A stretch of 35,556 nucleotides of DNA from Formosa sp. (lineage in GTDB: Bacteria; Bacteroidota; Bacteroidia; Flavobacteriales; Flavobacteriaceae), in the NCBI GenBank assembly GCA_018673215.1, contig JABHDE010000062.1, positions 1-35,556 on the forward strand, written 5' to 3'. The notes below the pieces were generated by a model that saw only the letters and a program-made list of their open reading frames with translations, searched no databases and was not told the DNA's origin. Position 1 is the first letter of the stretch. Each line of letters begins with the position of its first letter. The position numbers were made by a program, and so were the translations under genes. Positions 2,196-8,026 of this stretch are shown here, one piece after another.

Positions 2196-3278
2196 TTACT
2201 TATTCAAGATCAATTCTTGGTGATTGATCGATTCTTGGTGCACTGCTTTAAACAGTTTGAGGATAAACTCTTCACTCAAATTGTGTTGTTCGCCTTCGAG
2301 GACCATCTTCCCTAAAATCTCATTCCAGCGTTTGCTTTGTAACACTGCCACGTTTTCTTGTTTTTTGAGAGTGCCAATGCCTTCTGCAACTTTCATGCGT
2401 TTTCCTAAAATTTCGAGCAACTGGTTGTCCATCACGTCTATTTGTGCCCGTAAATTTTTAAGCTGATCGTTGTAAGCAACTTTTGGGGTCGATTCTTTTC
2501 GGATTTTTAAATCTTTCATAATTTGAACTAATGTACTTGGCGTCACTTGTTGTGCGGCATCACTCCATGCATTGTCAGGATCAAAATGGGTTTCGATCAT
2601 CAGACCATCAAAATTCAAATCGAGGGCTGTCTGAGACACATCAAAAATCATATCACGTTTTCCTGTAATATGAGAAGGATCGTTGATTAATGGAAGGTCT
2701 GGAAACTTAGTTTGCAATTCAATCGCCATTTGCCATTCAGGCGTATTTCTATATTTTGTTTTTTCATAAGATGAAAATCCTCTGTGAATGACCCCTAAGT
2801 TTTTGATGTTTGCTGTTGCCAAACGCTCGATAGCCCCTAACCATAAGGCTAAATCTGGGTTGACAGGGTTTTTAACCAACACCACTTTGTCAGTTCCTTG
2901 TAAGGCATCCGCAATTTCTTGTACAATAAATGGACTCACTGTAGAGCGGGCACCAATCCATAGCAAATCGATATCGTGTTCTAATGCCAATTCAACATGG
3001 GCTCTGTTGGCAACTTCAGTGGCTGTTTTTAGACCCGTTTCCGCCTTTACTTTTTGAAGCCATTTGAGACCCAATGCGCCGACGCCTTCAAAATTTCCTG
3101 GACGTGTTCGAGGTTTCCAAATTCCTGCACGGTAATAGCTTACATCTGTGTCTTTAAGCTCATGCGCAATTCTTAAAACTTGTTCTTCGGTCTCGGCACT
3201 ACAAGGCCCAGCAATTACTAAAGGGTGGTCGAGATTTAACTCAGTTAACCAATTTCCTAGTTCTTTTTTGTTTTCCAT
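2196..3278 (-). CDS. Bifunctional DAHP synthase / chorismate mutase
   Basis: 360 aa. Residues 15-265 are a type I (KDO8P-synthase-like) 3-deoxy-7-phosphoheptulonate synthase: PLVIAGPCSAET, YRAGIWKPRTRPGNFEG, LLWIGARST, VLVKNPVNPD, GVIHRGFS and NDPSHITGKR carry the phosphoenolpyruvate and metal sites. Residues 268-360 are an AroQ-type chorismate mutase helix bundle (LRAQIDVMDNQLLEILGKRM, then LQSKRW). The protein makes DAHP from PEP and erythrose 4-phosphate, and converts chorismate to prephenate. In related fusions the mutase domain mediates prephenate or end-product feedback on the synthase; that is family knowledge, not visible here. It is the last gene of the operon, 12 nt after tyrA. Confidence 0.96.
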   Translation of the reverse strand: MENKKELGNWLTELNLDHPLVIAGPCSAETEEQVLRIAHELKDTDVSYYRAGIWKPRTRPGNFEGVGALGLKWLQKVKAETGLKTATEVANRAHVELALEHDIDLLWIGARSTVSPFIVQEIADALQGTDKVVLVKNPVNPDLALWLGAIERLATANIKNLGVIHRGFSSYEKTKYRNTPEWQMAIELQTKFPDLPLINDPSHITGKRDMIFDVSQTALDLNFDGLMIETHFDPDNAWSDAAQQVTPSTLVQIMKDLKIRKESTPKVAYNDQLKNLRAQIDVMDNQLLEILGKRMKVAEGIGTLKKQENVAVLQSKRWNEILGKMVLEGEQHNLSEEFILKLFKAVHQESINHQELILNK

Positions 3279-3290
3279 TTTTTGTTATTA

Positions 3291-4142
3291 TTAAGCAATT
3301 CCTTTTAATATTTGTTTTATGTGATTTGTATTTTTCATTTCGTTGTATACCGCTTCAAAATCGTCTTGTTCCATATAGGCCTTAAACTGATTCAAATTGT
3401 GAATATACTCTGTAAGCGTTTCTATAACATTGGCTTTATTTTGTTCAAAAATAGGCGTCCACATATCGGGCGAACTTTTCGCCAATCGTACGGTAGATTC
3501 AAATCCACTGCCTGCCATGTCAAAGATATTACGTTCGTTTTGTTCTTTGTCAATCACTGTTTTTCCCAGCATAAAGGAACTGATGTGTGACAAATGCGAT
3601 ACATAAGCAATGTGTTTATCATGATCATTCGCAGGCATAAAACGCAGATGCATTCCCATGTTTTTAAACAGGGTCAAAACCACTTCTCCTAAGGCTGGCA
3701 AGGTTTTTTCGACCTCACAAATGATGTTGGTCTTATTCTCAAACAAGCCCTTTATTGCTGCGGAAGGTCCAGAAAATTCAGTACCGGCAATGGGATGTGT
3801 TGCTAAAAATTGAGGACGTTTTGGATGTGTGGATACTACCTTACATATCGCTTCTTTAGTAGAGCCCATATCAATCACCACCGCTTGGTCTGAAATCAAA
3901 TTTAAAACCTGAGGCAATACCTTTAAAGCGGCGTTTACGGGAATTGCCAACACGACTAAATCTGCTATCTTAAGGGAGTCAAAATCCCCTATTTGGTCGA
4001 TGATCCCGAGTTCTAAGGCTTCAAACAAATGTGCCTCATTGTGATCAATTCCTGTGACACGAGCTTCTGGGATGTGTTGCTTTAAATCCAATGCAAAACT
4101 TCCTCCTATCAATCCAATCCCTATGATGCTTATCTGTTTCAT
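3291..4142 (-). CDS. tyrA: Prephenate dehydrogenase
   Basis: Oxidises and decarboxylates prephenate to 4-hydroxyphenylpyruvate with NAD(P)+, the tyrosine branch. The 283-aa product opens with a Rossmann dinucleotide fold, IGIGLIGGS, and carries THPIAGTEFSGPSAA with the conserved His of the family and SHLSHISSF in the helical domain. I placed the start at the ATG at 4142-4140: it gives the typical MKQISIIGIG N-terminus and overlaps the TGA of the upstream aminotransferase as ATGA. The frame is open to 4316, but those extra 58 residues merely read through the aminotransferase gene. No ACT domain is present, so direct tyrosine sensing by this protein is not expected. Confidence 0.95.
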   Translation of the reverse strand: MKQISIIGIGLIGGSFALDLKQHIPEARVTGIDHNEAHLFEALELGIIDQIGDFDSLKIADLVVLAIPVNAALKVLPQVLNLISDQAVVIDMGSTKEAICKVVSTHPKRPQFLATHPIAGTEFSGPSAAIKGLFENKTNIICEVEKTLPALGEVVLTLFKNMGMHLRFMPANDHDKHIAYVSHLSHISSFMLGKTVIDKEQNERNIFDMAGSGFESTVRLAKSSPDMWTPIFEQNKANVIETLTEYIHNLNQFKAYMEQDDFEAVYNEMKNTNHIKQILKGIA

Positions 4143-5281
4143 AACACTCGATTTATAGCGGATTGAATACTTTCTTTGGGGGCACATAATGAGAATCTGA
4201 TATAGCCTTCGCCATTGCTGCCAAAGATGGTGCCTGGGGCTATAAATATATGATGCTTTTGTAATAAGTTGTCTATAAATGTTTCTGATTTTAAGCCAGA
4301 AGGCAGCTTGGCCCATACAAACATTCCTGAAGTTGTGGTTTCAAAGGTACAGTTGAGAGCGGTCGCTAATTCCCACACCAGCGCACGGCGCTCCGAATAA
4401 ATTTTATTTAAATCCTTAAACCAGTTTTTTGAACTGTTTAGAGCTTCAACAGCACCCTTTTGAATGCCGTAAAACATTCCCGAATCCATATTACTTTTCA
4501 CTTTAATGACATTTTGTAAATGTACTGCTGAGCCTGTCAACATCCCCACTCGCCATCCGGCCATATTGAAGGTTTTACTCAACGAATTGAGTTCTAAACA
4601 GACGTCTTTTGCACCTTCGATATTAAAAATACTAGAAGGATTGTCATTTAAAATGAAACTATATGGGTTGTCGTTGATGAGTAAAATAGAATGTTTTTTA
4701 GCGAAATCTACCAATGCTTTTAATACGGTTTGATTGCCTAAAGTCCCCGTTGGCATGTGCGGATAATTGACCCACATGATTTTTACCTTTGACAGATCAA
4801 TGGCTTCTAAGGCTACTAAATCAGGCTGCCAATTAGAACTCGCTTTTAGATCATAAAAAACAGGTTCTGCTCCTACCAATTTCGTAACTGAAGTATAGGT
4901 TGGATAGCCTGGATTTGGGATTAAAACGGCATCGCCTTCGTTGAGGTATGCCATAGAGATATGCATAATCCCTTCTTTACTTCCTATGAGAGGCAAGACT
5001 TCGTTTTCAGGATTTTGACTTACATTATAATGGGTTTGATAAAAATCTGCCATAGCCGACCGAAGTTCTGGCAGGCCTTGGTAACTTTGATATTTGTGGG
5101 CTGAGGCATCCGCTAAACTATCGTTAATCGCAGAAATAACCGCTTTTGGCGGCGCCAAATCAGGGCTTCCGATGCCTAAATTGATTATTGGTGCGCCAGC
5201 AGCTTTCATGGCATGGACTTCTCTTAATTTTTTAGAAAAGTAGTATTCTTCAACGGTATGTAATCGATTGGCAGTGACCAT
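4139..5281 (-). CDS. Aromatic/prephenate-type aminotransferase (class I/II, PLP)
   Basis: 380 aa, fold type I PLP aminotransferase. Visible features are the substrate-binding N-terminal arm INLGIGSPD, the cofactor region GSKEGIMH, NPGYPTY, the loop NYPHMPTG in place of the usual NPxNPTG, and SLSKTFNMAGWR with the PLP lysine at about residue 236. Lying between pheA and tyrA it most likely transaminates phenylpyruvate and 4-hydroxyphenylpyruvate, or prephenate, but the exact substrate cannot be read from the sequence. Its ATG shares one base with the TAA of pheA (TAATG), and its stop overlaps the tyrA start. This tight coupling argues that the four genes are translated from one message. Confidence 0.93.
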   Translation of the reverse strand: MVTANRLHTVEEYYFSKKLREVHAMKAAGAPIINLGIGSPDLAPPKAVISAINDSLADASAHKYQSYQGLPELRSAMADFYQTHYNVSQNPENEVLPLIGSKEGIMHISMAYLNEGDAVLIPNPGYPTYTSVTKLVGAEPVFYDLKASSNWQPDLVALEAIDLSKVKIMWVNYPHMPTGTLGNQTVLKALVDFAKKHSILLINDNPYSFILNDNPSSIFNIEGAKDVCLELNSLSKTFNMAGWRVGMLTGSAVHLQNVIKVKSNMDSGMFYGIQKGAVEALNSSKNWFKDLNKIYSERRALVWELATALNCTFETTTSGMFVWAKLPSGLKSETFIDNLLQKHHIFIAPGTIFGSNGEGYIRFSLCAPKESIQSAINRVL

Positions 5282-6108
5282 TATTTTTTTGCGTTTTTAT
5301 ATTCCCCTAAAATTTTAAATTCTTCTGCCATGAGTTTCATAATGGCTTTGCCCTTTTCATAATCAGAGAATTTATCAAAAGTGATGTCCACAAAAAAGGC
5401 ATATTTCCACGGGGTATCAATTTTTGGTAGGGATTGGATTTTTGTTAAATTCAAATTACAATCACTCATCACATTGAGCATTGCTGCCAAGCTTCCGCGT
5501 TTGTGATCCAACAGGAATTTGACAGAGGCTTTATTTGTTGTTGCTGTATTATGTTTGACTTGGTTTCTTTCGACAATGACAAATCGAGTTTCGTTGTGTT
5601 TAATTGTTTGGATGCTTTTTGCGAGAATTTCCAACCCAAATAGTTGAGCCGCTTGTTCACTCGCAATGGCAGCAACACCTTGAAGTTGACCCTCTGAAAT
5701 TCGTTTGGCAACCTCTGCAGTATCGGTGTCTTCGATTAATTTTATATGAGGATATTGTTTGAAAAACTCTTTACATTGTAACAATGCCATGGGATGAGAA
5801 AACACTTCTTTGATCTCTTGAATCGATTGCCCTTTGAGTGCCATCAGATTGTGTTGAATTTCTAAAAAACACTCTCCCGTAATGTGTAAATCCTGATCAT
5901 TAATGTGTGCATAATTCGGAATGATAGAACCAGCGATAGAATTCTCTAAGGCCATAATAGCCACATCTGATGTTTTGGAAATTAAACTTTCCACAACTTC
6001 ACTGAATGAAAGATAGGGTTGCACCACAACGGATTCCTCAAAATATGTTTGAGAAACAATGTGATGGAACGATCCTTCAATTCCTTGTATGGCTACTTTT
6101 TTGGTCAT
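5281..6108 (-). CDS. pheA: Prephenate dehydratase with C-terminal ACT domain
   Basis: Converts prephenate to phenylpyruvate, the phenylalanine branch. 275 aa: the periplasmic-binding-protein-like catalytic domain covers residues 1-182 (IQGIEGSFHH, ALENSIAGS, FSHPMALLQC, and the TRF motif at 174-176 in ETRFVIV), and an ACT domain follows at about 193-270. In the ACT domain the usual GALx and ESRP phenylalanine-binding motifs read GSLA (205-208) and QSLP (225-228), so the ESRP arginine is missing. No chorismate mutase is fused here; that activity sits on the DAHP synthase downstream. The ATG lies immediately after the T tract of a terminator-like hairpin, as expected for an attenuated operon. 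Confidence 0.95.
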   Translation of the reverse strand: MTKKVAIQGIEGSFHHIVSQTYFEESVVVQPYLSFSEVVESLISKTSDVAIMALENSIAGSIIPNYAHINDQDLHITGECFLEIQHNLMALKGQSIQEIKEVFSHPMALLQCKEFFKQYPHIKLIEDTDTAEVAKRISEGQLQGVAAIASEQAAQLFGLEILAKSIQTIKHNETRFVIVERNQVKHNTATTNKASVKFLLDHKRGSLAAMLNVMSDCNLNLTKIQSLPKIDTPWKYAFFVDITFDKFSDYEKGKAIMKLMAEEFKILGEYKNAKK

Positions 6109-6137
6109 AAAAAAAAATCCCGATGTTTACATCGAGA
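6109..6137 (-). terminator. Attenuator hairpin directly before pheA
   Basis: On the minus strand TCTCGATG (6137-6130), loop TAAA, CATCGGGA (6125-6118) form an 8-bp stem with one G-U pair, followed by nine T residues (6117-6109) that end exactly at the pheA ATG. A factor-independent terminator between a leader reading frame and the first gene, rather than after the last gene, is the hallmark of attenuation. Because it abuts the start codon it could also block ribosome access. Confidence 0.85.
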
Positions 6138-6164
6138 CTTATATTTAAAATTTATATTGATAAA

Positions 6165-6242
6165 TTACATATACAGTGCTTCGATTTCTTTTTTGAAAAA
6201 GAAATAATAAAAGCTATAAAAAATGTAATTTACGGATGTCAT
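6165..6242 (-). CDS. Phe/Tyr-rich leader peptide of the aromatic operon
   Basis: A 25-codon frame (ATG at 6242-6240, TAA at 6167-6165). Codons 6-16 encode Y-I-F-Y-S-F-Y-Y-F-F-F: nine of eleven are aromatic, five Phe and four Tyr. Its stop is 28 nt before the attenuator hairpin. Codons 13-19 also form a hairpin on the transcript (6205-6184, ATTTCTTTTT pairing with AAAAAGAAAT), and ATCGA at codons 20-21 (6185-6181) is complementary to TCGAT in the 5' arm of the terminator (6135-6131). A ribosome stalled on the Phe codons would mask the first half of the leader hairpin and free the second half to compete with the terminator. The peptide itself is probably not functional. It has the architecture of E. 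coli pheL but reads both Phe and Tyr, matching an operon that makes both. Confidence 0.8.
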   Translation of the reverse strand: MTSVNYIFYSFYYFFFKKEIEALYM

Positions 6243-6259
6243 AGTTTTGTAATCGGAAG

Positions 6260-6267
6260 CTAAAGTA
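6260..6267 (-). promoter_or_regulatory. Weak -7-like box upstream of the Phe/Tyr leader
   Basis: TACTTTAG on the minus strand differs from TAnnTTTG at one fixed position. It would start transcription about 10-15 nt before the leader ATG at 6242. No good -33 element at normal spacing was found. It is the best candidate in an A/T-rich stretch where such matches arise easily. Confidence 0.3.
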
Positions 6268-6640
6268 TATATATTTTGTACAAAAAAAAACTTAATTTCT
6301 TTTTTTTGTGACTTGTCTAGAAAATTTATAGATAATTCAATGAAAATAGACCTGAAATCCATAAATTATATTTTTAAGGGCTTATTTTAGAGAATTAATT
6401 TAAGAGATGGTTTTTCAGAATAAGCTTAAAATGTGATGCTTAGTAAATTCCTATCAACACAAAAACAGCAAGCATACGGGATAGCGCTCCTTTACCTTTA
6501 CCACTAGGGGTTTAGACACACTAATTACATTGGCTACACTTCTAATGTCAACTTTTAAATATTGACCGAAGGTGACTACTAAGAATTAAATATTTAAACA
6601 CTTAGTGCAGAGATATGGGTTCTGACTTTTTTATTCATTC
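6268..6640. other. Divergent intergenic region between the aromatic operon and metK
   Basis: About 370 nt with no credible gene on either strand. It is A/T-rich, with a 12-bp perfect palindrome TTAAATATTTAA at 6586-6597 framed by CTAAG and CTTAG. I recognise no further promoter, RNA or repeat. Confidence 0.5.
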
Positions 6641-6747: not shown

Positions 6748-6780
6748 CTCATAATGTTCTCATAAAAAAATGTTTATGAG
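6748..6780 (+). promoter_or_regulatory. Start-codon-sequestering hairpin of metK with duplicated anti-start
   Basis: CTCATAAA (6759-6766) is perfectly complementary to TTTATGAG (6773-6780), which contains the metK ATG at 6776; the 8-bp stem has a 6-nt loop. A second CTCATAA copy at 6748-6754, three bases after the riboswitch P1 helix, can pair with the same start region. This is a plausible expression platform acting on translation initiation. Confidence 0.55.
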
Positions 6781-8026
6781 TTATTTATTTACATCTGAAA
6801 GCGTTTCAGAAGGGCATCCAGATAAAGTTGCCGACCAAATTAGCGATGCTTTAATCGACCATTTTTTGGCGTTTGATCCCGACTCAAAAGTTGCTTGTGA
6901 AACCTTAGTAACTACCGGTCAAGTGATTCTGGCGGGTGAGGTGAAATCTAAAACCTATCTAGACGTGCAAAAAATTGCACGCGATACCATAAACAAAATT
7001 GGTTACACCAAAGGAGAATATATGTTTGACGGGAATTCTTGTGGAGTGCTTTCAGCAATTCATGAGCAATCTGAAGACATCAATCGTGGAGTGGACAGAG
7101 GTACTGAAGAACAAGGAGCTGGCGATCAAGGAATGATGTTTGGATATGCGACAAATGAAACTGAAAACTTTATGCCTTTGGCATTAGACCTGTCGCACCG
7201 CATATTAATTGAACTCGCTGCCATGCGTCGCGAAAACTCGGACCTTACTTACATTAGACCCGATTCTAAAAGTCAGGTAACGATTGAATATGATGATGAC
7301 AATACACCCAATCGGATAGATGCCATAGTGATCTCTACCCAACACGATGATTTTGACGAAGAGACGGCTATGTTGGCGAAAATCCGTGAGGATTTAAAAA
7401 CAAAATTAATCCCTAGAGTGGTTGCAAAACTGCCTATACATATCCAAGATTTATTTAACGATGAAATCACATATCACATCAATCCAACTGGAAAATTTGT
7501 GATTGGAGGACCACATGGAGATACAGGCCTTACAGGCCGAAAAATCATTGTAGATACTTATGGAGGAAAAGGTGCTCATGGTGGGGGTGCATTTTCTGGG
7601 AAAGACCCAAGTAAGGTAGATCGTAGTGCGGCCTATGCCACGCGTCACATTGCCAAAAATATGGTGGCCGCTGGAATTTGCTCGGAGGTCTTAGTGCAAG
7701 TGAGTTATGCCATTGGTGTTGCAGAACCTATGGGTGTGTTTGTGGATACGTACGGAACAAGTCCGTTTAATTTAACCGATGGTGAAATTGCTGATAAAAT
7801 CTCAACATTATTTGATTTACGTCCTGCTACTATCGAAAAACGCTTAAAGCTTCGCAGTCCTATTTATAGTGAAACTGCTGCTTACGGACATATGGGTCGG
7901 GAGCCAAAAACTGTATCCAAAACATTTCATCAACCCAATGGCGAAAGTTTGACTTTAGATGTTGAACTGTTTACGTGGGAAAAACTGGACTATGTGGAAG
8001 CAATTAAAAAAGCTTTTGGAATTTAA
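6776..8026 (+). CDS. metK: S-adenosylmethionine synthetase
   Basis: Makes SAM from methionine and ATP in the cytoplasm, a tetramer of three-domain subunits. The 416-aa product has the N-terminal ATP site [15 protein letters not shown], the signature hexapeptide region [12 protein letters not shown] near residues 116-127, the P-loop-like [13 protein letters not shown] and [17 protein letters not shown] prefer the ATG at 6776 because MetK proteins begin [10 protein letters not shown]; the in-frame ATG at 6770 would add Met-Phe and lies in the loop of the start-codon hairpin. The gene sits alone behind a candidate SAM riboswitch, so repression by its own product is expected. It converges with a truncated transporter fragment 8 nt downstream. 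Confidence 0.97.

Follow-up and report, generated by a model that had tools for sequence, protein, structure and literature searches.

A predicted ribosome-mediated attenuator with mixed aromatic codons upstream of the pheA operon in Formosa sp. and other Bacteroidia

We analysed a contig of 35,556 nucleotides from Formosa sp. (JABHDE010000062.1), which in its full length is called the window here. On its minus strand lies pheA, encoding prephenate dehydratase (5281..6108, start ATG 6108-6106; PF00800, E 1e-54), followed on the same strand by a class I/II aminotransferase gene (4139..5281; PF00155, E 8e-64), tyrA for prephenate dehydrogenase (3291..4145, start approximate; NF006307, 383 bits against a cut-off of 295) and a gene for a DAHP synthase-chorismate mutase fusion (2196..3278; PF00793 and PF01817). 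This gene content means that the operon serves phenylalanine and tyrosine synthesis and also encodes the first committed step for all aromatic amino acids. For comparison we used the best 80 of 294 PheA relatives found in genome contigs (the near set; leader counts refer to the window plus 79 of these), and the three genes downstream of pheA have a same-strand tblastn match in 80/80 relatives. On the plus strand, a SAM-II (long loop) riboswitch (RF01726, 6664-6724; 59.2 bits, cut-off 44) lies upstream of the divergent metK (6770-8026).

Upstream of pheA, on the minus strand, a TTTG at 6281..6284 matches the Bacteroidota consensus, and we take it to be a candidate -33 element. The -7 box, TACTTTAG at 6260..6267, was assigned from the consensus TAnnTTTG and from relatives: in 77/80 loci TA[CT][TA]TTAG occurs in the 75 nt that precede the ATG of the leader, and TTTG starts 17 or 22 nt ahead of the box in 67 of the 77 loci that have it. 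In flavobacteria this TAnnTTTG box is placed at -12 to -5 (PMC9723704). From the position of the box, transcription is predicted to start near 6255.

Between this promoter-like box on one side and pheA on the other lies a leader open reading frame on the minus strand, MTSVNYIFYSFYYFFFKKEIEALYM, of 25 codons plus stop (6165..6242; ATG 6242-6240, stop TAA 6167-6165), which we infer to be translated. Nine of the eleven codons from Y6 to F16 (6195..6227, minus strand) are aromatic, five Phe and four Tyr; an earlier note on this DNA had described the leader in these terms, and its coordinates and counts hold. A tenth aromatic codon, Y24, falls outside this sensor block, and 24 bases separate the leader from the terminator in the window.

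The transcript of this region fits the logic of three competing pairings, 1:2, 2:3 and 3:4, that the earlier note had drawn, except in the extent of the 2:3 pairing, which had been put at 5 bp and is longer. All elements lie on the minus strand. The 1:2 hairpin spans the aromatic codons (6178..6214; 6214-6210 pairs with 6182-6178, and 6205-6197 with 6192-6184) and folds at -8.7 kcal/mol (z -2.7; 3/200 shuffles equal or better). Segment 2, the antiterminator 5' strand (6169..6185, core ATCGAAGC), forms an imperfect duplex with 6144-6131 that encloses a 7-bp hairpin AAUUUAU/AUAAAUU found by folding (6149..6166); the motif of this inner hairpin, AATTT...AAATT, occurs in 52/80 rows and hence is not universal. 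Segment 3 (6130..6144) is both the antiterminator 3' strand and, with AAGTCTCGATG at 6140-6130, the 5' arm of the terminator. The intrinsic terminator (6109..6140) pairs 6140-6130 with 6125-6115 and ends in a tract of nine Ts, 6117-6109, that adjoins the pheA ATG. Its stem region, 6140-6115, folds at -12.0 kcal/mol (z -5.1), with 0/200 shuffles as good, and the antiterminator stretch 6195-6126 at -9.6 kcal/mol (z -2.1), with 8/200 shuffles as good.

Two further claims of the earlier note are true of the window but not of its relatives as a whole. The antiterminator had been called the weakest element, and in the window it does fold more weakly than in any other of the 80 loci (-8.8 kcal/mol; the next is -9.3), but averaged over the 80 loci the antiterminator region has -13.1 and the terminator -12.5 kcal/mol. 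The weakness in the window is likely caused by GAA in place of GAG as the Glu codon of segment 2, the sole such case among the 80 loci. An assembly error is an unlikely source of this GAA, since the nearest relative, L211, which lies outside the 80, has it too; a codon-pattern scan of relatives that read the GAA of L211 matched 15/16 loci and missed L213. The terminator lying directly on the start codon had been presented as a distinguishing trait, and we reject it as a hallmark: the U tract adjoins the start codon in only 34/80 loci and is more than 20 nt away in 30/80.

In 79/80 best relatives pheA is preceded by a leader in which 6 or more of 11 codons are aromatic; in the remaining one, L018, the contig starts within the leader, and segment 2 and the terminator are present. 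Counted over the window and the 79, all 80 upstream regions attain this density and 76/80 have at least 8 aromatic codons in 11, while 16 of 400 dinucleotide shuffles reach 6 and none reaches 8, and 0/80 antisense strands reach 6. Aromatic residues are confined to one frame, which has 8.4 per 11 codons where the other two have 2.1 and 3.0, and the 80 leaders comprise 76 distinct peptides. Conservation of the aromatic codons was one of the points on which the earlier note had, beforehand, allowed itself to be refuted, and the comparison came out in its favour: aromatic codons, terminator and 2:3 complementarity are kept or change together, and the spacer drifts. One record in this comparison, L006, is titled 'uncultured Rhodobacteraceae bacterium' and has a pheA locus 88% identical in protein to that of the window, with the same kind of leader; it is mislabelled or a mixed bin.

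The codon recipe is most regular next to segment 2. With codons numbered from the Glu codon of segment 2, all 80 near leaders have Tyr at -8 (in L054 the frame is shifted between core and segment 2, which is kept as RNA, and the segment 2 frame has TTA at -8), and Phe stands at -7 in 78/80, at -6 in 79/80 and at -5 in 74/80. Position -10 is Trp in 56/80 and Phe in 20/80, with Phe in the window; beyond the window's own clade the usual leader form, judged by eye, is ...TYYNWFYFFFSKRNETLYV. The mixed sensing of Phe and Tyr that the earlier note had proposed agrees with the codon counts of the window and has to be widened for its relatives, as 57/80 near leaders also carry a Trp codon. Together with 52 distant leaders, described below, Phe and Tyr codons are present in 132/132, giving the short leader open reading frame rich in end-product codons that is typical of ribosome-mediated attenuators; Trp codons are present in 74/132, 17 of them among the 52 distant leaders.

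Segments 2 and 3 are conserved as RNA. GTCTCG of segment 3 is unchanged in 80/80 near loci, segment 2 is mostly CGAG[AG]C and is encoded in the codons of the leader tail, and the two pair in 99.5% of cells, compared with 21-47% when slid against each other; a column-shuffle control was uninformative (500/500) because segment 3 is invariant in the near set. At the Glu codon of segment 2, 76/80 loci have GAG, two GGG, one GTG and one, the window, GAA. As GAG makes up only 399/1556 Glu codons in pheA of the 80 relatives, its choice in segment 2 looks set by RNA pairing. Six leaders stop early, at -3, and one at -1, and in these segment 2 is still kept as RNA. Over the 79 distinct rows of 80, 99.9% of cells in the terminator stem are paired; two sequences carry a change on both sides of one pair. 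RNAalifold on the alignment recovered only a 5-pair core of the antiterminator, a limit due to the gapped spacer, and we therefore took single-sequence folds instead.

We extended the comparison to 127 PDT (PF00800) loci, not counting the window, made up of the best-scoring loci and 40 hand-picked for family spread. In this sample, whose rates are biased because many further matches lie outside it and 40 loci were picked, leaders precede pheA in 24/24 loci of the window's own family, in 7/9 of other families of the order (f2 and f116 aside) and in 21/34 of other orders of the class, 13/34 there having none by our rule. Five loci with 5 aromatic codons per 11 (L097, L122, L135, L166 and L192) fall just under this rule and were counted as leaderless. 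No leader was found before pheA in 0.6-Mb genomes of family f116 (0/10 loci) or in family f2 of the same order (0/21), whose PheA is divergent at 26-31% identity, nor in 29 loci from other classes of the phylum. By chance, 14/635 shuffles and 3/127 antisense strands pass the rule. Loci in our samples are partly dependent, many coming from one genus and some perhaps from the same species as members of the near set. The distant leaders have 8.1 aromatic codons per 11 in frame, against 2.2 and 2.7 in the other frames.

Of these 52 leaders and that of the window, 47/53 have a terminator by a script rule and 6/53 do not. In the 47, we compared the stretch behind the aromatic block with composition-preserving shuffles of itself, and found it complementary to the terminator 5' arm at p<0.05 in 33/47 and at p<0.01 in 23/47; the other 14/47 miss p<0.05, the window among them (p=0.16). 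A locus's own spacer is a better complement than the mean of foreign spacers in 46/47 loci, and better than at least 95% of them in 31/47. The paired letters differ between lineages (for example CGAGAC/GTCTCG, CCGGGAC/GTCCCGG and AGCGGGA/TCCCGCT), and so segments 2 and 3 have changed together. A terminator and a mutually exclusive pairing upstream of it are thus found across the family, the window's own such pairing being weak (p=0.16, z -2.1). Genus g2 (L121, L124, L183, L186, L188 and L209) has leaders of the type NRFYFSN..FYFFFSRS... and a terminator AATCCTGAT/ATCAGGATT; its segment 2/3 letters are unlike those of the window and its logic is the same, with L183 and L209 of the six missing p<0.05.

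Codon placement was examined by folding. We set the ribosomal A site on each codon of the 80 near leaders, assumed 12 nt to be covered downstream, and scored capture of segment 3 by upstream RNA ahead of segment 4. The predicted antiterminator probability is 0.96 for stalls at -13 to -5, 0.74 at -4 and at most 0.11 from -3 on; further upstream, at codons -19 to -14, it is 0.82 to 0.95. The aromatic block ends at -5 and no leader stops before -3. The sensor codons therefore occupy the last stretch in which a stall leaves segment 2 free, and a ribosome on the stop codon never does so. Computed with this assumed 12-nt footprint, codons and stop are placed such that stalling frees segment 2 and completion covers it; widening the footprint to 15 nt lowers the value for a stall at the last core codon to 0.73.

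For the full RNA at equilibrium, with a ribosome on the first core codon, the terminator is favoured in 68/80 loci (mean 0.85, window 0.80); the antiterminator wins in 12/80, mostly in the window's own clade, the window itself excepted. Hence the switch must be mostly kinetic, the order of synthesis deciding in most loci. When the ribosome is left out and folding is taken before segment 4 is made, the antiterminator has a mean of 0.78 and exceeds 0.5 in 67/80 loci (window 0.27). The calculation therefore neither shows a clearly off state in the absence of translation nor accounts for one.

On the evidence of sequence comparison and folding, the element is in all likelihood a ribosome-mediated transcription attenuator of the pheA-aminotransferase-tyrA-DAHPS/CM operon, and the leader very probably switches the operon on when Phe or Tyr is scarce. 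Transcription would begin near 6255 and a ribosome would translate the leader. With ample Phe-tRNA and Tyr-tRNA it would reach the stop codon and cover segment 2, segment 3 would pair with segment 4, and RNA polymerase would halt at about 6109, ahead of pheA. With either tRNA uncharged, the ribosome would stall in the aromatic block and open the 1:2 hairpin; the freed segment 2 would capture segment 3 ahead of the synthesis of segment 4, and the terminator could not form, leaving the operon to be transcribed. Because a stall on either type of codon would suffice, one leader may serve both branch products. In relatives with a Trp codon one leader probably reads all three aromatic amino acids, which fits an operon in which the initial enzyme of the common pathway is encoded as well.

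Aromatic codons upstream of a terminator could also be read in other ways. The YFFF core conserved in the near set would suit an arrest peptide, for which TnaC is the precedent of sequence-dependent stalling: the leader's own sequence with free aromatic amino acid, and not uncharged tRNA, would hold the ribosome. We consider this very improbable, as in distant lineages the aromatic residues vary freely in both order and identity, the codons behind the block track the RNA pairing, and six leaders stop one codon past the core. We give equally little credence to the idea that the U-rich aromatic stretch is an untranslated pairing strand and that a protein or metabolite operates the terminator; the stretch does pair in the 1:2 hairpin, but its aromatic density is confined to one frame and draws on TTC and TAC codons too, the position of the block matches the ribosome edge, and no riboswitch family reaches its cut-off.

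Hardly more probable is control of translation, in which the terminator stem ahead of pheA blocks initiation and termination is minor. The loci in which the U tract adjoins the start codon, the window among them, would permit such control, but in the 30/80 with the U tract more than 20 nt from it leader and terminator are alike. An initiation block may nonetheless supplement attenuation in loci whose U tract adjoins the start codon. Returning to attenuation, a broader reading has slightly less than an even chance: an old Bacteroidia family of attenuators in which one peptide senses how far three aromatic tRNAs are charged, with Tyr read at -8, Phe at -7 to -5 and, in 56/80 near leaders, Trp at -10, and controls the DAHP synthase operon, with Phe replacing Trp in the window's clade and translation being blocked as well where the terminator abuts the start codon. 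If this holds, it implies tight coupling of transcription and translation in a phylum with little Shine-Dalgarno pairing. The attenuator itself predicts that the leader ribosome closely trails RNA polymerase in Bacteroidota. One operon would respond to two or three amino acids through a codon recipe which lineages rewrite, with Trp or Phe in the same place.

The predicted mechanism is classical, and the family is real, widely conserved and of mixed aromatic specificity. The enterobacterial pheA leader shares the regulated gene and the attenuation logic, but E. coli pheL has Phe codons and is not known to have Tyr codons; scored with Rfam RF01859 (Phe_leader), the pheA leader of the window reaches 14.3 bits against a cut-off of 55. 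Mixed codons occur in the E. coli ilvGMEDA and thr leaders (branched-chain; Thr/Ile) and in the Leu/phe leader RF01743 of Lactococcus, where likewise one leader serves several amino acids of a pathway, but these are branched-chain, Thr/Ile or Leu/Phe and not the whole aromatic family. A T-box or metabolite riboswitch was not found in the pheA leader at cut-off (best PyrR, 25.8 of 54 bits, E 0.13), and eight related loci had no Rfam match at the gathering score. A family without a match in Rfam 15 gains an exact anatomy, a phylogenetic range and testable rules. The Bacteroid-trp leader (RF01692; Weinberg et al., 2010, PMC2864571) is, as described there, also a Bacteroidota leader RNA with a leader peptide before an aromatic amino acid operon, but it has Trp codons and a trp operon, and the pheA leader does not match its model.

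A regulatory element at flavobacterial pheA is already in print. A 2021 study of F. psychrophilum reported a structured 5' element upstream of pheA, kept in other genera and without an Rfam match, and described strong signs that amino acid operons are attenuated through leader peptides (PMC9723704); our attenuator would account for this structured region. We found no leader sequence, codon mix or antiterminator in that study's account of the element, and its Table S7 may hold a prior description; in our literature searches we found no mixed Phe/Tyr/Trp leader described in Bacteroidota. What is new here is the predicted mixed aromatic sensing, the anatomy and the class-wide spread. Leader-peptide-like sORFs are reported in Bacteroides (PMC7366714), and phenylalanine operons under attenuator control in other species (PMC1262725).

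The missing Trp codon of the window leader does not reflect a loss of Trp synthesis, which we considered and rejected, as the same genome has trpE, trpG, trpD and trpC in a row with a leader of their own. Across 56 genomes trpC is absent in four, all four also without a leader Trp codon; they are uninformative on this point, since only 17/52 distant leaders carry a Trp codon anyway. The leader before the trpE-G-D-C cluster (genes by Pfam) is of the Bacteroid-trp kind (L210, 5833-5949 on contig C37), scoring 48.7 bits against a cut-off of 49. Its peptide, MNLTLNNTWWWYSRKQNS, has three Trp codons in a row, and it provides an internal precedent for attenuation in the same organism.
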